Positions 3,856 through 9,650 of a DNA stretch of 24,976 bases are shown here, in pieces (position 1 is the stretch's first letter; every line of letters begins with the position of its first letter). The stretch lies in the IMG/VR virus record IMGVR_UViG_3300030451_000535, positions 1-24,976 of that record; one strand, given 5' to 3'. A program made the position numbers and the translations under genes. A model generated the notes under the pieces. It was not told the DNA's origin. It saw only the letters and a list, made by a program, of their open reading frames with translations, and ran no database searches. Source of the DNA: a virus.

Positions 3856-4010
3856 GTCTTTAACTCCTCTAATGGTTTTAAATTAAATGCACCCAATTCC
3901 CCACACGCTACATCAGACTCCAATTGCCTTAGTAATATTCTGTATGCATCTTTCTCTGAGTTTGCGTATATAACGTCACAATACGTGACAATATATGGTT
4001 TACCTTCCAT
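3852..4010 (-). CDS. Small hypothetical protein, 52 aa
   Basis: This protein reads MEGKPYIVTYCDVIYANSEK and then a helix DAYRILLRQLESDVACGE. Both ends overlap neighbours (TAATG at its start, ATGA at its stop), which supports its being real despite its length. No family is recognised. Confidence 0.55.
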   Translation of the reverse strand: MEGKPYIVTYCDVIYANSEKDAYRILLRQLESDVACGELGAFNLKPLEELKT

Positions 4011-4545: not shown

Positions 4546-4691
4546 CAAAATCTCCTCTCATCTTTTAATCTTTTGATTGAACATTTAAAGCAGTACAGAA
4601 ACTTGTGAAACATATACATTTCACTAGCTCTGCACTCCTTGCCACACTCTTTGCACTTAGCATTTACTGTGTTGTCTAAGATAATACTCAT
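4545..4691 (-). CDS. Small zinc-ribbon-like protein, 48 aa
   Basis: Five cysteines are arranged as CKECGKEC (Cys13, 16, 20) and CFKC (Cys34, 37), the spacing of a small zinc ribbon or treble-clef knuckle. A basic tail (SIKRLKDERRF) follows. Genes on both sides overlap it by 4 bases or less (ATGA, TGATG). It probably binds zinc, and possibly nucleic acid or a host protein; the target is unknown. Confidence 0.6.
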   Translation of the reverse strand: MSIILDNTVNAKCKECGKECRASEMYMFHKFLYCFKCSIKRLKDERRF

Positions 4692-5179
4692 ACCTTATCC
4701 ACATATACACGTAAACACTTAGACTTGCCGATAGGTTGACCGAACTCATACTTCTTCCAACCTTCTGTCTTCTTAGTCTCGTCATCAAGATACTGACCTT
4801 TGACACGTATCTTGTAACTCTCTTTGTTGAGATACTTCTTGAGCATTCTAACAAAGATTTTACCTATTTGTTTGTTAGGTATATCACAGAACATATAACG
4901 CCAACCTTTAGGCTCTTGTTCTTGGATTAGCTTGTGAATAAATTTATCCTTCTCTTCAATCAAGCCTTCAAGTCTAGCCACCTTGTCATGATGCTCCTCT
5001 GTCTGTTTGACAATCTTACGTAGTAAATGCTCGATGTAGTGATCACCAAGTCTGATGTAATCTTGTCTACCTTTTGACCAAACTTTGTAATTAAGAACAT
5101 CGTTTATGTCGCATGGTCTTTTTCTCTCTGATAATGAGTCTACCATATCGTAGACTGCGTCTAAAGTTAAATTTCTCAT
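4688..5179 (-). CDS. Hypothetical protein, 163 aa, with a central coiled-coil
   Basis: The N-terminal part (MRNLTLDAVYDMVDSLSERKRPCDINDVLNYKVWSKGRQDY) looks helical and could be a small HTH-like domain. A coiled-coil stretch follows (about residues 50-85, LLRKIVKQTEEHHDKVARLEGLIEEKDKFIHKLIQ), then a mixed basic C-terminus. The ribosome site AAAGGAA is well placed. This layout, a possible DNA-binding head with a dimerising coil, would suit a regulator, but that is inference and no family is recognised. Confidence 0.6.
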   Translation of the reverse strand: MRNLTLDAVYDMVDSLSERKRPCDINDVLNYKVWSKGRQDYIRLGDHYIEHLLRKIVKQTEEHHDKVARLEGLIEEKDKFIHKLIQEQEPKGWRYMFCDIPNKQIGKIFVRMLKKYLNKESYKIRVKGQYLDDETKKTEGWKKYEFGQPIGKSKCLRVYVDKV

Positions 5180-5659: not shown

Positions 5660-5798
5660 GATAACCTCCTTTCATGTTATTGGTTGATGGAATTGTATTA
5701 TCCCTCTTGCGACTATACTTCTTCTTGTTAGGCACAATCTGTTTTCTCTTGCGATTGTGTGCCATAGCCTTTGCAACAGGATTAATTCTTTTTATCAT
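5622..5798 (-). CDS. Small basic phage protein, 58 aa
   Basis: The N-terminus reads MIKRINPVAKAMAHNRKRKQ and continues with VPNKKKYSRKRD. This INPVAKA...VPNKKKYxRK pattern recurs in short proteins of many phages, whose function is not known to me. It overlaps both neighbours (17 and 38 bases). The ATG at 5798 is preferred to one 6 codons earlier because it gives the conserved N-terminus. Confidence 0.6.
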   Translation of the reverse strand: MIKRINPVAKAMAHNRKRKQIVPNKKKYSRKRDNTIPSTNNMKGGYHGIKQQADSEDT

Positions 5799-5973
5799 TA
5801 CGTAAATCTCTCTCAAAGTTTTTAATGCTCTCGTTTAACTCCATAGCTAAATCTAGACCATCTAAAACACCTAAGTATCTTTCTTTACTTAACTTACCAA
5901 ACTTCTCACAATGCCTAACATATAAACTTCTAAGTCTATCCATCTTTTGGAAATGTGTTAACTTGTTAGTCAT
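5782..5973 (-). CDS. Small hypothetical protein, 63 aa
   Basis: This helical, charged protein runs MTNKLTHFQKMDRLRSLYVR and ends SIKNFERDLRNDKKN. Its start overlaps the end of the preceding gene, and it lacks a clear ribosome site, so it may depend on coupling. A dyad operator (5977-5991) sits directly upstream of its ATG. No family is recognised. Confidence 0.5.
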   Translation of the reverse strand: MTNKLTHFQKMDRLRSLYVRHCEKFGKLSKERYLGVLDGLDLAMELNESIKNFERDLRNDKKN

Positions 5974-6142
5974 TTTTTACCAACTTGGTAAGTTTTTTAA
6001 ATGCATTCGCTTGTACGTTTGTGTAATTACTTTGTATAAATACTAAAGTAAAGTCCTCAAAGTCTAGCGATCTCATGTTTGATACCTTGCATAAACGCTG
6101 ATGCAAATCAAACATATTTAATAAATCATCTACTGTTGTCAT
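5966..6142 (-). CDS. Small hypothetical protein, 58 aa
   Basis: This protein starts MTTVDDLLNMFDLHQRLCKV and ends AFKKLTKLVKND. The ATG at 6142 overlaps the GP88-like gene's stop (ATGA) and has GGAGAG upstream. The last codons (LTKLV) are formed by a copy of the dyad operator, so a protein-binding site is embedded in coding sequence. No family is recognised. Confidence 0.55.
   Translation of the reverse strand: MTTVDDLLNMFDLHQRLCKVSNMRSLDFEDFTLVFIQSNYTNVQANAFKKLTKLVKND
5977..5991. promoter_or_regulatory. Dyad operator copy A (perfect palindrome)
   Basis: TTACCAACTTGGTAA has perfectly matching 7-bp arms around one central base. It lies at the junction of two overlapping small genes, directly before the ATG at 5973, and is the only copy far from the control region. 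Confidence 0.5.
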
Positions 6143-6843
6143 GCCACTCTCCAATTATCTAAATCTCGTACAACAAATCCACTTGTATCATTTTTAGCTT
6201 TGCCTTTGGCAGATAGCCAAACCACAACACCTTTTGGATCAAGGAATCGTAAGTCATCTTTGTCTCCATCAATACAATCTAAACCTCTGAACTTCTTAGG
6301 CATAGGTAAGGTGGACACAACTGCCATGTTTGTACATGTGTCAATAACTGCTCGATATATCTTGTGAGCATAATCCATGTCAGCCTCACTATATGATAAG
6401 GTAAGATGGTAATTAGGTGGTAACTTCTTGTACACTCGCTTGTATGTCTTGGTGTAATCATAGAACTGTATGTCATAGAAGTCATACATAAGGTTAGTTC
6501 GCTCAAACAATATGTCACTCGTACCATTAGGTCTAGCACATGGTTTTACTTTGTTTTTGTGCATTCTGCGTCTAAACATATGCATGTCATGATACATGTA
6601 GTCCATGAACTTGAACTTGTCTGTAAGATACAAGTCTGTCTTACGTTGCCTAGCCTTTTGTACAGTATTAAATACACCTCGCCCTGCAGTATTTAGGCAA
6701 GGATCTTTACACTTTGCCACATCTTGAAAGGGACATATCTTGGTGTTCTTTGGGAATAAATGCATGATGGCAGTCATATATTCTGATCCATCACCTTTTA
6801 CAATCTTGGTATTACTCCCCACTCCAAATAATTTATAACTCAT
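6139..6843 (-). CDS. GP88-family phage protein
   Basis: This 234-residue protein has the features I associate with the phage 'gene product 88' family: GSNTKIVKGDGSEYMTAIMHL, then a cysteine cluster CPFQDVAKCKDPCLNTAGRG (Cys37, 45, 49), then KARQRKTDLYLTDKFKF, PCARPNGTSDILFE and YDIQFYDYTK. The clustered cysteines suggest a metal site. The family is common in tailed phages, but no activity is established to my knowledge. AGGAGG lies 7 bases before the ATG, and the stop is coupled to the next gene. Confidence 0.75.
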   Translation of the reverse strand: MSYKLFGVGSNTKIVKGDGSEYMTAIMHLFPKNTKICPFQDVAKCKDPCLNTAGRGVFNTVQKARQRKTDLYLTDKFKFMDYMYHDMHMFRRRMHKNKVKPCARPNGTSDILFERTNLMYDFYDIQFYDYTKTYKRVYKKLPPNYHLTLSYSEADMDYAHKIYRAVIDTCTNMAVVSTLPMPKKFRGLDCIDGDKDDLRFLDPKGVVVWLSAKGKAKNDTSGFVVRDLDNWRVA

Positions 6844-6852
6844 AAATACCTC

Positions 6853-7242
6853 CTATATATAAATTCTTGGTTTATCTTCATGCATTTCTAGTCGTACTGC
6901 ATACCTCATATTCTTATCGATAGGCTTGTACTGACTCATGTCAGAGAACTTCTGCACCATAAAGAAGTCATCTGTGTGAGGATTATACCTCACTCTTCTC
7001 CATAGCATTTTCTTTGCATAGTCTGAAGACAAGTCATCTGTTATAAGACCACGAACAAAGGCATGGACATTCTTCTGCCCACTCTCCCTTACACGTTTTT
7101 GTCCACTTGGCTGCACAACAAACTCTGCATCTATTATCTCTGCATACCTTACGTGTGTAAACACTTTACCTTTGTGTTCCCCTTCCAAAGCTCGTACACT
7201 ATACTTTTTCTTGGGGATATTCCAATATAATTCAACTCTCAT
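6853..7242 (-). CDS. Conserved hypothetical phage protein, 129 aa
   Basis: The N-terminal strands MRVELYWNIPKKKYSVRALEG and the motif SGQKRVRESGQKNVHAFVRG (about residues 46-65) resemble a recurring phage protein with an N-V-H-A-F/G signature. The C-terminal half has aromatic and basic residues (WRRVRYNPHTDDFF). The leader carries a dyad operator followed directly by a perfect AAAGGAG. The function is unknown; a nucleic-acid role is possible from the charge. Confidence 0.65.
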   Translation of the reverse strand: MRVELYWNIPKKKYSVRALEGEHKGKVFTHVRYAEIIDAEFVVQPSGQKRVRESGQKNVHAFVRGLITDDLSSDYAKKMLWRRVRYNPHTDDFFMVQKFSDMSQYKPIDKNMRYAVRLEMHEDKPRIYI

Positions 7243-7257
7243 AATTTTCTCCTTTTT

Positions 7258-7272
7258 TTAACAAGTTGGTAA
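7258..7272. promoter_or_regulatory. Dyad operator copy B
   Basis: TTAACAAGTTGGTAA is a 15-bp dyad with one mismatch between its arms. It lies immediately upstream of the ribosome site of the 7242 gene; the leader reads TTACCAACTTGTTAA, A-tract, GGAG. It is shared almost unchanged with the leader of the 7688 gene. Confidence 0.6.
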
Positions 7273-7275
7273 GAA

Positions 7276-7464
7276 TTATTTCCATGATGGATCACATATT
7301 GCAATCCAAGCAAAGCCAACACCTGATATAGCCAAACTGATAGTAATTAGCTCTCGCATATAAAAGGGATTAAACAACTCCCTTGTTATATCCCAAAATG
7401 TATAGCTTGTTAATATACAACATAATCCAAATATTGTAATTAAAGTTCTAGCGAATATTATCAT
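7276..7464 (-). CDS. Small membrane protein, two helices, 62 aa
   Basis: Two hydrophobic segments are visible: about residues 3-20 (IFARTLITIFGLCCILTS) and 40-57 (ITISLAISGVGFAWIAIC), joined by a charged hairpin WDITRELFNPFYMREL. The ribosome site AAAGGAG is ideal. The size and topology would suit a superinfection-exclusion or membrane-takeover protein, but no family is recognised. Confidence 0.6.
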   Translation of the reverse strand: MIIFARTLITIFGLCCILTSYTFWDITRELFNPFYMRELITISLAISGVGFAWIAICDPSWK

Positions 7465-7478
7465 TTACTTCTCCTTTT

Positions 7479-7688
7479 TTAATATCGTTGAAATCTTATA
7501 AATGGTTTACCTTCCTCACAATCTTCTGCAAAGTTCTTGCAAGTCTGAATAAAGCAATCATTACATAAAGGAAAACCTATTTTAAATCTTCCATATTCTG
7601 TTTCCCCAAAGGCATAACATGTTACTTTACTGTTTCCCTTGTAATTGCTAAGACAACCACAATCAGCACATTTATTTCTCTTTTCCAT
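7479..7688 (-). CDS. Zinc-ribbon-like protein, 69 aa
   Basis: Eight cysteines include CADCGC near the N-terminus (Cys7, 10, 12), a CYAF, and the pair CNDC (Cys42, 45), followed by Cys50 and Cys57. CxxC...CxxC spacing indicates a zinc-binding fold. The gene sits about 45 bases from a sigma-54-like promoter (7733-7749), with a dyad operator between them, so it is probably regulated separately from the rest of the arm. The ribosome site is AAAGGAG. The function is unknown. Confidence 0.65.
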   Translation of the reverse strand: MEKRNKCADCGCLSNYKGNSKVTCYAFGETEYGRFKIGFPLCNDCFIQTCKNFAEDCEEGKPFIRFQRY

Positions 7689-7702
7689 CTATTTCTCCTT
7701 TT

Positions 7703-7717
7703 TTAACAAGTTGGTAA
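7703..7717. promoter_or_regulatory. Dyad operator copy C
   Basis: TTAACAAGTTGGTAA is identical to copy B. It lies about 5-19 bases downstream of the start site predicted for the sigma-54-like promoter at 7733-7749, a position where a bound protein would block initiation or early elongation. Confidence 0.6.
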
Positions 7718-7732
7718 GAATTAATAATATTA

Positions 7733-7749
7733 TGCAATTTCCATGCCAA
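7733..7749 (-). promoter_or_regulatory. Sigma-54-type promoter S1 (-24/-12)
   Basis: TTGGCATGGAAATTGCA on the minus strand matches TGGCAYR-N4-TTGCW at every position. The predicted transcription start is near 7722, giving a leader of about 34 bases for the zinc-ribbon gene at 7688. Confidence 0.65.
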
Positions 7750-7772
7750 AAACGATAGTTGACAAAAATAAA

Positions 7773-7991
7773 TCACTCCTCAATCGTGGCACGTAATTTA
7801 GCCAAAGCCTCGTCAAGTTCGGTCTGCTCCTTCTGTTTGGTATTTACATAGTCTGCCTTCTGATCAATAGAATGCCAATCAAACTCATGCCTTGATGTAT
7901 GTTTGGCAAGTCTTGACATAGACGATTGTAATTTACCACGTGTAATATGCACACGTATACCATTATCCCAATAGTATGTATTTTTAGCCAT
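7773..7991 (-). CDS. Hypothetical protein, 72 aa
   Basis: This protein starts MAKNTYYWDNGIRVHITRGK and ends in an acidic helix TELDEALAKLRATIEE. The ribosome site AGGAG lies 7 bases before the ATG. It is the only gene between the terminator at 8059-8093 and promoter S1, and no obvious promoter precedes it, so it may depend on read-through. No family is recognised. Confidence 0.55.
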   Translation of the reverse strand: MAKNTYYWDNGIRVHITRGKLQSSMSRLAKHTSRHEFDWHSIDQKADYVNTKQKEQTELDEALAKLRATIEE

Positions 7992-7995
7992 TGCT

Positions 7996-8044
7996 CACTC
8001 CTATATAAAATTTACTCGTCACTCCTCACTCCTCACTCCCCACT
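7996..8044. repeat. Short tandem repeat of AGGAGTG (minus strand)
   Basis: Three adjacent 7-bp units (CACTCCT, CACTCCT, CACTCCC, 8020-8040) are followed by a fourth partial unit; a separate copy at 7996-8002 supplies the real ribosome site of the 7991 gene. On the minus strand this gives a row of Shine-Dalgarno-like AGGAG motifs upstream of the start. Confidence 0.6.
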
Positions 8045-8058
8045 GTGATAGTAGTGAC

Positions 8059-8093
8059 AAAAAAAAATAAAGAGAGTGAAATAAATCACTCTC
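8059..8093 (-). terminator. Rho-independent terminator
   Basis: On the minus strand an 8-bp stem GAGAGTGA / TCACTCTC with a 6-base loop is followed by TTTATTTTTTTTT. It lies 17 bases after the stop of the first leftward gene (8110-8709), so that gene forms its own short transcription unit, at least in part. Confidence 0.85.
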
Positions 8094-8098
8094 AATAT

Positions 8099-8113
8099 TT
8101 AACAAGTTGTTAA
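8099..8113. promoter_or_regulatory. Dyad operator copy D (perfect palindrome)
   Basis: TTAACAAGTTGTTAA has arms that match perfectly around a single central base. It overlaps the stop codon of the 8110-8709 gene and abuts the terminator hairpin. Confidence 0.55.
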
Positions 8114-8709
8114 GAATTACTTGCAACTAATTGCATATCCTTCGCAACTTCAATGTCATGTAATTGCTTAGATTGTTGATCATTTAAAGATTTTTCTGCA
8201 TTATTTTTAGATTGATTATTTGCAATTGCTTCAACTAACTTAACAGTTGAAATATCAAACTTTTTAGTAGTTGAATTGAAAAAATCAGTAATGACTTCAT
8301 CTAAGGTTTTTTCTGCAGGTGGAACATTTAAAAGACTTCCTAAACCTCTTATTGTATCAGCTTTAAAAGGTTTTTTCTTATCCTTACAATCTTTAATTTT
8401 AGCTTCAACAACTTTAACAGAATGTTCAGCATTTTTGCCTAGTTTACGCATTGCACTCTTATGATTAGGAGTACATTTTTTAACAACTTGGTAAAAATCT
8501 TTACCTTGTTTCTGCAACTCCTCATCTATTGCCTTAGAAACTCCCTTATCTAAATTCTTATCTTTTATCTTTTTTTCTGCAATGTAAAACATATTAGAAA
8601 ACCAAATAAAATCTTTGTAAATATCTTGAATAAGAGTGTTACTTGATTTTAAAAAGTTGTTTTCTTTATTAACTAACTTTTCTACATTTTTATAATTTAC
8701 ATTTATCAT
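8110..8709 (-). CDS. First leftward gene, hypothetical protein, 199 aa
   Basis: This lysine-rich, largely helical protein starts MINVNYKNVEKLVNKENNFL and contains AMRKLGKNAEHSVKVVEAKIKDCKDKKKPFKADTIRGLGSLLNVPP in the middle. The C-terminus is low-complexity (NNQSKNNAEKSLNDQQSKQ). AGGAGA is well placed. It is the gene closest to the control region, preceded by stacked promoters and dyads, ended by its own terminator, and carries one dyad copy internally (8480-8494). That position is typical of an early regulator or host-takeover protein, but no DNA-binding fold is recognisable by eye. Confidence 0.65.
   Translation of the reverse strand: MINVNYKNVEKLVNKENNFLKSSNTLIQDIYKDFIWFSNMFYIAEKKIKDKNLDKGVSKAIDEELQKQGKDFYQVVKKCTPNHKSAMRKLGKNAEHSVKVVEAKIKDCKDKKKPFKADTIRGLGSLLNVPPAEKTLDEVITDFFNSTTKKFDISTVKLVEAIANNQSKNNAEKSLNDQQSKQLHDIEVAKDMQLVASNS
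8480..8494. promoter_or_regulatory. Dyad operator copy E (inside a gene)
   Basis: TTAACAACTTGGTAA lies within the 8110-8709 coding region, where it encodes part of FYQVVKK. An intragenic copy could serve as a looping partner or roadblock, or be incidental. Confidence 0.4.
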
Positions 8710-8750
8710 TTATTTTCTCCTATAATTAAATTAAAATGTATTAATCATCT

Positions 8751-8767
8751 TGCAATTGTTATGCCAA
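8751..8767 (-). promoter_or_regulatory. Sigma-54-type promoter S2
   Basis: TTGGCATAACAATTGCA matches the -24/-12 consensus exactly. The predicted start near 8740 gives a leader of about 30 bases for the 8709 gene. Two dyad operators end 4 and 25 bases upstream of its -24 box. Confidence 0.65.
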
Positions 8768-8770
8768 AAC

Positions 8771-8785
8771 TTAACAACTTGGTAA
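8771..8785. promoter_or_regulatory. Dyad operator copy F
   Basis: TTAACAACTTGGTAA is followed by GAATT. It forms a tandem pair with copy G, with centres 21 bp apart, about two helical turns. Confidence 0.6.
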
Positions 8786-8791
8786 GAATTT

Positions 8792-8806
8792 TTAACAACT
8801 TGGTAA
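8792..8806. promoter_or_regulatory. Dyad operator copy G
   Basis: This copy is identical to F, including the trailing GAAT. The same-face 21-bp spacing suggests cooperative binding of two dimers. Confidence 0.6.
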
Positions 8807-8832
8807 GAATTAAACATAACATAGTAGTAATA

Positions 8833-8849
8833 TGCAATTATCATGCCAA
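8833..8849 (-). promoter_or_regulatory. Sigma-54-type promoter S3
   Basis: TTGGCATGATAATTGCA matches the consensus exactly, with a predicted start near 8822. It overlaps the -10 box and spacer of a sigma-70-type promoter on the same strand (8837-8865). Confidence 0.6.
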
Positions 8850-8865
8850 GTTTTATAAGTGTCAA
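8837..8865 (-). promoter_or_regulatory. Sigma-70-type leftward promoter
   Basis: On the minus strand a perfect TTGACA (8865-8860) is separated by exactly 17 bases from GATAAT (8842-8837). The predicted start is near 8830. The -35 box is one arm of a TGTCAA-N4-TTGACA dyad, so an operator would cover it. This is the best ordinary promoter for the leftward arm. Confidence 0.65.
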
Positions 8866-8875
8866 ATTATTGACA
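8860..8875. promoter_or_regulatory. TGTCAA-N4-TTGACA dyad, copy 1
   Basis: A perfect 6-4-6 inverted repeat that overlaps the -35 box of the leftward sigma-70 promoter. A further half-site (TTGACA) lies at 8886-8891. Confidence 0.5.
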
Positions 8876-8897
8876 ATACGAAATATTGACACTCCCA

Positions 8898-8917
8898 ACT
8901 GTCAAAATTTTGACAGT
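8898..8917. promoter_or_regulatory. TGTCAA-N4-TTGACA dyad, copy 2 (20-bp perfect palindrome)
   Basis: ACTGTCAAAATTTTGACAGT is a complete palindrome; its core (8900-8915) starts exactly 40 bp from copy 1. It spans the start site predicted for promoter S4 (about 8913). Confidence 0.55.
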
Positions 8918-8923
8918 GATAGT

Positions 8924-8940
8924 AGCAAGAATCGTGCCAA
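8924..8940 (-). promoter_or_regulatory. Sigma-54-type promoter S4
   Basis: TTGGCACGATTCTTGCT is an exact match with the common -24 form TGGCACG. The predicted start is near 8913, inside the 20-bp palindrome. Confidence 0.6.
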
Positions 8941-8978
8941 AAATGACCATAAAAAAATATATGCTCCTATTTTTCATT

Positions 8979-8995
8979 TTGGCATGAAATTTGCT
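8979..8995 (+). promoter_or_regulatory. Sigma-54-type promoter S5 (rightward)
   Basis: TTGGCATGAAATTTGCT matches exactly on the plus strand, with a predicted start near 9006. It is the only rightward member and faces S6, with the two -12 boxes 2 bases apart. It could feed the late arm through a long leader, or instead serve as a binding site that blocks S6. Confidence 0.5.
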
Positions 8996-8997
8996 AA

Positions 8998-9014
8998 TGC
9001 AAGATTTGTGCCAA
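8998..9014 (-). promoter_or_regulatory. Sigma-54-type promoter S6
   Basis: TTGGCACAAATCTTGCA is an exact match on the minus strand with a predicted start near 8987, inside S5. Operator copy H lies about 73-87 bp upstream of its -24 box, within the usual range for a sigma-54 enhancer site. Confidence 0.55.
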
Positions 9015-9027
9015 GTTACATAAAGAA

Positions 9028-9046
9028 AACTGATACAATATCAGTT
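9028..9046. repeat. Inverted repeat AACTGATA-CAA-TATCAGTT
   Basis: Perfect 8-bp arms flank a 3-base centre. No U-tract follows on either strand, so it is more likely a protein site than a terminator. No second copy was found. Confidence 0.45.
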
Positions 9047-9086
9047 ACTTAACAATAAAAAATGTAATAAAATCAATACATTATTT

Positions 9087-9101
9087 TTAACAACTTGGTA
9101 A
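9087..9101. promoter_or_regulatory. Dyad operator copy H
   Basis: TTAACAACTTGGTAA is followed by AAAATT. It is the copy furthest right and lies upstream of the whole sigma-54-like cluster. Confidence 0.55.
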
Positions 9102-9300
9102 AAATTATTTTTTTGCGTCAATCTTGCCAAAAAACTATCATTTTTTTGCTATGCCATGCGTCAGCCATACCCCGTACACCACGTTGTATCATGTAGAAAT
9201 ACACAGATTAGAAAAATCAAGTGTTAACCACTAAAATAACTGTTAATATATTTTTTAAAAGTATATGAATAAGAGCAGCCGGGCAAACATTTTAACTGTA

Positions 9301-9334: not shown

Positions 9335-9397
9335 ACATTTAAAATGTTAACATTTATAATGTTATATACATTTAATATATAATAACATTTATAATGT
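9335..9397 (+). repeat. Tandem ACATTTAWAATGT operator array
   Basis: Palindromic 13-mers occur at 9335-9347 (ACATTTAAAATGT), 9350-9362 and 9385-9397 (both ACATTTATAATGT). A degenerate copy lies at 9368-9380. The start-to-start spacings are 15, 18 and 17 bp. The array covers the predicted start site and leader of the rightward promoter, where a bound protein would repress it. Confidence 0.6.
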
Positions 9398-9443
9398 GTC
9401 TTATCCTGACAACCCCCTACGTAAATATACATTGAACTTGACA

Positions 9444-9650
9444 ATGAGGAAAAAATCCGTAAAACTATATACAGATAATGTGCTTAAAACATTTTATCGT
9501 GCTGTCCGTACTAATAAATTAGATAAATTACATATCCCCCATAGTGATGTTTACTACGTAAGAGCAGCAGTAGAGGCTCGTAGTGGACAAAAGTTTTCGT
9601 TAGCACACGTAGAAAGGATAATGAAAGAAGAGGGATGGAAAGATACGTAA
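9444..9650 (+). CDS. First rightward gene, small conserved phage protein, 68 aa
   Basis: This protein starts MRKKSVKLYTDNVLKTFYRA. The C-terminal half (HIPHSDVYYVRAAVEARSGQ, then AHVERIMKEEGW) is a pattern I have met in short proteins of marine phages; its role is unknown. The basic, helical character could suit a small DNA-binding protein. The start is uncertain: neither this ATG nor an in-frame GTG at 9396 has a ribosome site, and the GTG lies inside the last operator copy, so I prefer 9444. Confidence 0.6.
   Translation: MRKKSVKLYTDNVLKTFYRAVRTNKLDKLHIPHSDVYYVRAAVEARSGQKFSLAHVERIMKEEGWKDT

Follow-up and report, generated by a model that had tools for sequence, protein, structure and literature searches.

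Repeated dyads in the early arm

We analyzed a stretch of viral DNA of 24,976 bp (IMG/VR virus record IMGVR_UViG_3300030451_000535, positions 1 to 24,976; hereafter the window) for a family of short dyads among its early genes and for the gene whose product may read them. The window is, on sequence grounds, a fragment of an HMO-2011-type podovirus, because it has a homologous terminase and a bidirectional early/late layout. The window terminase shared 80% identity with its counterparts in Puniceispirillum phage HMO-2011 and Roseobacter phage CRP-1, early and late genes were common to the three phages, and the early genes point left, starting at about 9.1 kb, and the late genes point right, starting at 9.4 kb. 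The first early gene (8110-8709, minus strand), designated gene1, encodes 199 amino acids and is the proposed cognate repressor gene; gene2 (7773-7991, minus strand; 72 amino acids) is the alternative candidate for the binder.

The pattern TTAMCAASTTGKTAA had eight exact matches in the window, starting at 5977, 7258, 7703, 8099, 8480, 8771, 8792, and 9087 and all lying within 5977-9101, and no match in 300 dinucleotide-preserving shuffles of the window. The site has an odd number of bases, and the copies at 5977 and 8099 were perfect palindromes on either side of its central base; the remaining six were asymmetric (TTAACAA-S-TTGGTAA) and had the same orientation. A looser scan of both strands with up to three mismatches gave 20 matches, a less clean count given a shuffle mean of 8 and a largest shuffle value of 17. 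The leftmost copy, TTACCAACTTGGTAA (5977-5991), matched the pattern exactly, overlapped the 3' end of the open reading frame 5966-6154, and adjoined the start of 5782-5973; equivalent copies were present in three close relatives (L208, L209, and L210). TTAACAAGTTGGTAA (7258-7272) lay in the leader of gene 6853-7242, and the copy at 7703-7717 in the leader of gene 7479-7688, at about +6 to +20 of a sigma-54-like promoter (7733-7749). The divergent region held the copy at 9087-9101, at about +3 of a weak sigma-54-like site (9114-9130). A sequence-only reading of the window had reported eight copies confined to this interval, two of them perfect palindromes, in leaders, at a stop codon, inside genes, and beside sigma-54-like promoters; the mapped positions bore this out in full, the central base of the palindromes aside.

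Four copies lay in or around gene1. Those at 8771-8785 and 8792-8806 were upstream of the gene, the latter at about +17 of a promoter-like site (8833-8849); the copy at 8480-8494 was inside it, coding for FYQVVK; and TTAACAAGTTGTTAA (8099-8113) overlapped its stop codon. An intrinsic terminator-like hairpin (8072-8093, minus strand) followed directly after gene1 and this terminal dyad, so that gene1 would be a separate unit. The arrangement recurred in relatives: a site stood within 120 bp upstream of the gene1 start in 14 of 20 loci, within 150 bp after the gene1 stop or overlapping it in 13 of 20, and inside the coding sequence in 15 of 22 phages. All six codons of the 8480 site were identical in three relatives. 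The internal site fell at 0.36-0.40 of gene1 in one group of gene1 proteins (group A). Groups D and E differ in operator and are unrelated in sequence, yet both had the site at 0.61-0.76 of the gene, where it coded for S/P-N/D/Q-V-G in an apparent linker.

Palindrome sets in related phages

Relatives were gathered with four anchors: the terminase, the GP88-family protein, the 199-amino-acid protein, and a small late gene (at 9396). This gave 80 anchored loci (L numbers), of which 59 entered the palindrome survey, six of these being skipped for too short an upstream region. The palindrome scans needed a G+C count of at least 3, and very AT-rich or strongly gapped sites would be missed; the set of HMO-2011 was missed by the first scan and recovered by a gapped scan.

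The window motif was retained at equivalent places in L208, L209, and L210. Relatives in general had four to nine palindromes at comparable places, each lineage with its own version, mostly CAA-(1 or 2 bp)-TTG. The sets consisted of TTAACCAAGTTGGTTAA in L214/L283 (six copies, filling all six L214 sites), a TTACCAAGTTGGTAA-type palindrome in L103/L294 (seven), CGTCATAGACTATGACG in L216 (seven), TTCCTAACTTAGGAA in L302 (seven), GTTACCTACTAGGTAAC in L293 (six), GTTCCCAACTTGGGAAC in L298 (five), and TGTCCCAACTTGGGACA in L324 (11). GTCCAA-N2-TTGGAC occurred seven times in L300 and five times in the isolates CRP-1 and CRP-345, GTCCGA-N2-TCGGAC five times in L329, CCCCGA-N2-TCGGGG nine times in L308, and AGTCCG-N4-CGGACT five times in the isolate HMO-2011. 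The dyads were perfect or near-perfect in nearly all relatives, and the co-oriented asymmetric copies of the window were not general.

Twenty of the 25 loci tested against shuffles had a palindrome family of four to nine copies, the shuffle maximum being 3 (40 shuffles per locus). No set was found in this test for L326, L328, L331, and L311, and L325 had only two copies, though four 12-bp sites were seen there in the palindrome survey. A scan with each locus's own consensus gave 146 sites over 20 loci, including near-duplicates such as L290/L291 and L321/L324; 145 sites lay in the early arm and one in the late arm. The sites tracked promoters, leaders, and gene ends, and those near promoters mostly started 0-18 bp past the predicted start. 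The sequence-only reading had held that loss of the copies from conserved surroundings would speak against it; the opposite was found, with the places kept and, in L214, a different sequence throughout the set.

Other repeats were seen outside these sets. The distant higher-GC relatives L338, L350, L355, L359, and L360 had a different repeated dyad, TTCCTTTCAGGAA, in four to seven copies. In two further HMO-2011-type isolates, L392 (CRP-603; 4904-5013) and L385 (CRP-13; 6278-6353), a tight group of three or four TGTGATCACA-type sites stood near the record end, and we take these to resemble host Crp-family sites.

Change of gene1 together with the operators

The window was compared with L214, whose sites all differ. 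Most neighboring proteins were 72-99% identical between the two (96% for the GP88-family protein and 97% for 9396-9650), whereas the product of window gene1 had 27% identity, over 68% of its length, to its L214 counterpart (L214, 8109-8744). The gene2 products were 47% identical, and a counterpart of 7479-7688 was not found in L214. Both genes that had been named as possible sources of the binding protein could be assessed in this way: 8110-8709 gained support, since it changes with the operators, and 4688-5179 was disfavored as the binder, being 99% identical in L214 despite the different sites.

Across 21 phages, the distance between operator half-sites was correlated with the distance between gene1 proteins (Mantel r = 0.43, p = 0.0002). 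The correlation held after controlling for the anchor protein (partial Mantel r = 0.38, p = 0.0002) and in the dereplicated set (r = 0.30, p = 0.003, n = 17), and the anchor protein added nothing once gene1 was included. The half-sites were written down by hand, and the test left out L320 and L310, for which the automatic choice of gene1 looks wrong, together with near-duplicates, loci without a set, L303, L304, and L326.

A first early gene for about 190-260 amino acids occupied the place of gene1 in the set-bearing phages that were laid out. The spacer of the palindrome followed the protein group: a 2-bp spacer went with the homologous gene1 proteins of group E (L296, L300, L308, L312, L316, L325, L329, CRP-1 gp01, and CRP-345 gp01) and a 1-bp spacer with groups A to D. 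HMO-2011 gp74 also belonged to group E, and the gap of its palindrome was 4 bp. Comparison of the gene1 groups with one another by hhalign gave no support for common ancestry.

No convincing family for the gene1 proteins emerged from PHROG, Pfam, or NCBIfam: every match was weak and, where a curated cut-off exists, fell short of it. Profile searches against solved structures returned weak, unrelated rows only. Two AlphaFold models were all-helical, with mean predicted local distance difference test (pLDDT) scores of 77.9 and 73.6. Foldseek searches with these models gave no match at E ≤ 0.001; the best VIA rows had Z values of 5.1 and 4.2 and may be common helical arrangements. We refer to gene1 as encoding a putative DNA-binding protein by genetic inference, not by homology, and it is probably the switch protein that reads the palindromes.

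Integrase and other lysogeny-related genes

Of 27 contigs, 15 reach the DNA polymerase, and all of these had an integrase, as did 11 of 14 isolates. Neither an HTH_3 repressor nor ParA (AAA_31, PF13614) was found in 28 records, many of which were fragments. A search for hosts by terminase in genome contigs gave nine loci and no usable host: eight were on metagenome-assembled contigs, and the ninth was a weak match of 25%.

Sigma-54-like promoters in the window subclade

The early-arm promoters in the subclade of the window look sigma-54-dependent. On the minus strand, sigma-54-like -24/-12 sites were located at 8998-9014 (TTGGCACAAATCTTGCA), 8924-8940 (TTGGCACGATTCTTGCT), 8833-8849 (TTGGCATGATAATTGCA), 8751-8767 (TTGGCATAACAATTGCA, nearest to gene1), and 7733-7749 (TTGGCATGGAAATTGCA); a weaker one at 9114-9130 (TTGGCAAGATTGACGCA) was degenerate in L283 and L285. 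TTGGCATGAAATTTGCT (8979-8995) was on the plus strand, facing the late arm. The cluster had the marks by which a sigma-54 promoter is recognized, GG at -24 and GC at -12 at an invariant spacing, and at homologous sites TTGGCA and TTGC were invariant while the rest drifted. A sigma-70 reading, TTGACA-17-GATAAT at 8865-8837, was rejected: its -10 element was lost in L285 and L287, and GG and GC were invariant.

A scan of the 2.6 kb upstream of the anchor in 49 of the 80 loci, with a score of at least 27 of 30 on our own consensus scale, found four to six such sites in seven loci, two in one, one in three, and none in 38. The seven rich loci (L281, L283, L285, L287, L289, L294, and L302) were exactly those with a group A gene1. 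Two Methylophilales phages shared one short stretch with the window, and one of them, MEP402, had no sigma-54-like site.

Two perfect TGTCAA-N4-TTGACA palindromes, 40 bp apart, accompanied these promoters in the window (8860-8875 and 8900-8915) and in six of the seven subclade loci, L302 being the exception; the first, a possible enhancer site, was conserved in L281, L283, L285, L287, L289, and L294. Their TGT-N10-ACA spacing is that of NifA sites. The nearer palindrome precedes the -24 box by 10 bp and may therefore serve an activator or be a further operator. No PF00158 activator was found in 27 phage records, and a host activator would therefore be needed. At about 9390-9570, where its relatives have the TGTCAA palindromes, L302 had AATGATTATC/GAGAATCATTATC repeats, which resemble Fur-type sites.

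A scan of the collection for the arrangement of TGTCAA palindrome and sigma-54-like site gave 17 stretches, one of them in L404; most of the other new hits were one stretch found repeatedly, without a -12 element. L404, a phage of 54% GC with no detectable homologs of six window proteins, had TGTCAA-N4-TTGACA-type palindromes before a sigma-54-like TTGGCACAAACTTTGCT (3930-4001), and an opposite-facing sigma-54-like site in the same region. Compared with known sigma-54 promoters with enhancer palindromes, the window sites were alike in GG/GC spacing and in their near-consensus TTGGCAYR-N4-TTGCW, and unlike them in that they would drive phage early genes and that no phage-encoded activator was found. 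Among the titles and abstract openings seen in the literature, none described a sigma-54-type early promoter of a phage.

Proposed function of the dyads and alternative explanations

We propose, with a probability of about 0.6, that the dyads are bound by a phage-encoded dimer that represses the early arm and is most likely made by gene1. Bound just past promoter starts, it would block initiation or promoter escape, and where a copy lies in a leader, over a stop codon, or within a gene it would act as a stoperator-like roadblock to elongating polymerase. The copies before, inside, and after gene1 would limit the expression of gene1 itself. Protein and operator set would change together in each lineage, as immunity specificities do in temperate phages, and in the subclade of the window the repressed promoters would be sigma-54-dependent. 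The sequence-only reading had offered a repressor or an enhancer-binding protein with stoperator-like sites; the former is the better supported, by the confinement to the early arm, the change of the set between lineages, and its co-change with gene1, and the latter is disfavored, since palindrome sets were equally rich in relatives without the cluster of sigma-54-like sites.

Several findings weigh against a gene1 repressor. The gene1 proteins matched no known DNA-binding family by sequence or fold, and the operator of L290/L291 was nearly that of the window although their gene1 was not recognizably homologous. Codon identity at the site within gene1 was no more than suggestive (6/6 codons versus 60/90 between the window and L294), and the Mantel test did not separate gene1 from gene2. 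The integrase-bearing isolates CRP-2, CRP-3, CRP-207, CRP-212, CRP-235, CRP-603, and CRP-738 had no such palindrome set, which rules out a strict link between set and integrase; CRP-3, in which no set was found, was shown to integrate (PMC6918029).

If the system is otherwise the same, the binder could instead be gene2, whose distance tracked the operator distance as well as that of gene1 where both were present (r = 0.51, n = 14) and which had also diverged in L214. We favored gene1 because gene2 was not detected in eight phages that keep their palindrome sets (L305, L308, L312, L316, L321, L324, L329, and CRP-1); the sites, moreover, stand before, in, and after gene1 specifically, and a gene2 binder seems improbable. 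Less easily set aside, though still unlikely, is that the same protein and sites serve to switch off the early genes at a set time during lytic growth and not lysogeny or immunity. Gene1 comes first in the early arm with its own promoter-like site and terminator, and its sites would make it self-limiting, as in a Cro-type early regulator. Integrase, however, was found wherever a contig reaches the DNA polymerase, and the diversification of operators by lineage is known from immunity groups (PMC6550527).

Other functions for the dyads fared worse. That sigma-54-like sites adjoin several copies might suggest enhancer sites for a sigma-54 activator, but many copies lay within coding sequence or 0-18 bp downstream of a predicted start, the TGTCAA-N4-TTGACA palindrome is better placed, upstream, and neither the lack of a PF00158 activator in the 27 records nor the rich sets in relatives without sigma-54-like clusters fit this function, which we regard as very improbable. 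Hardly more credible is a role in partition, as centromere-like sites, or in replication. Some plasmid-prophages of the N15 type do have palindromes dispersed around their early genes, yet integrase was present, ParA was not found in the 28 records, and the sites follow promoters, leaders, and gene ends. The CAA-N-TTG core common to most lineages would suit a host protein as the binder; all L214 sites differ from those of the window, however, with an anchor protein 97% identical, and close relatives probably share hosts, so that we gave a host protein very little weight.

Comparison with known repressor systems

In phage lambda, CI and Cro bind dyad operators as dimers and are autoregulated. 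Dyad operators, a dimer, and autoregulation are likewise proposed for the window group, whose sites differ from the lambda type in being scattered over kilobases and not clustered at two promoters, and in whose 28 records no HTH_3 protein was found.

Cluster A mycobacteriophages (L5 and Bxb1) have many repressor sites, distributed over the genome in promoters and in the short spaces between genes, and in related phages the site motif and the repressor differ together (PMC6550527, PMC9283540). The window group is similar in that its sites recur through the early arm, both at promoters and where genes adjoin, and in a motif that diverges with the presumed repressor gene1. L5-type sites are asymmetric 13-mers, numbering 20-30 per genome and bound by a monomer with two DNA-binding domains (PMC6550527, PMC9283540), whereas those of the window group are dyads of 14-17 bp, of which a contig has 4-11, often within the gene of the presumed regulator. 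The window group was set apart from the cluster A family because the asymmetric, oriented 13-bp site that defines the latter was not encountered and no homology was detected, no gene1 homolog being found among solved structures.

Some early genes have relatives in mycobacteriophages. The window gene 6139-6843 encodes a GP88-family protein (PF17338) with tblastn matches in 186 Mycobacterium phage records, and HMO-2011 gp02 (L362, 1550-1951) is annotated as similar to Gp82 of mycobacteriophage L5. Stoperators, too, are known from mycobacteriophages, namely those of cluster A.

Implications for HMO-2011-type phages

A published description has HMO-2011-type phages as a dominant group in the ocean (PMC9038755). 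A term search of PMC9038755, PMC6918029, and PMC8528129 for promoter, repressor, and palindrom gave no occurrence. Tentatively, and at somewhat less than even odds, we suggest that these abundant marine phages have an undescribed, fast-diversifying repressor-operator system, with operators inside the repressor gene, that sorts them into immunity groups, and that the host's sigma-54 polymerase drives the early genes of one subclade through sites for a host enhancer protein, so that stress or nutrient signals of the host would feed into the early switch. Early promoters of the sigma-54 type would be unusual for a phage. If this is true, a testable early switch would have been named, the gene1 proteins would form a family whose DNA code can be read and of which nature supplies more than ten variants, and the palindrome type would predict which HMO-2011-type phages exclude each other.

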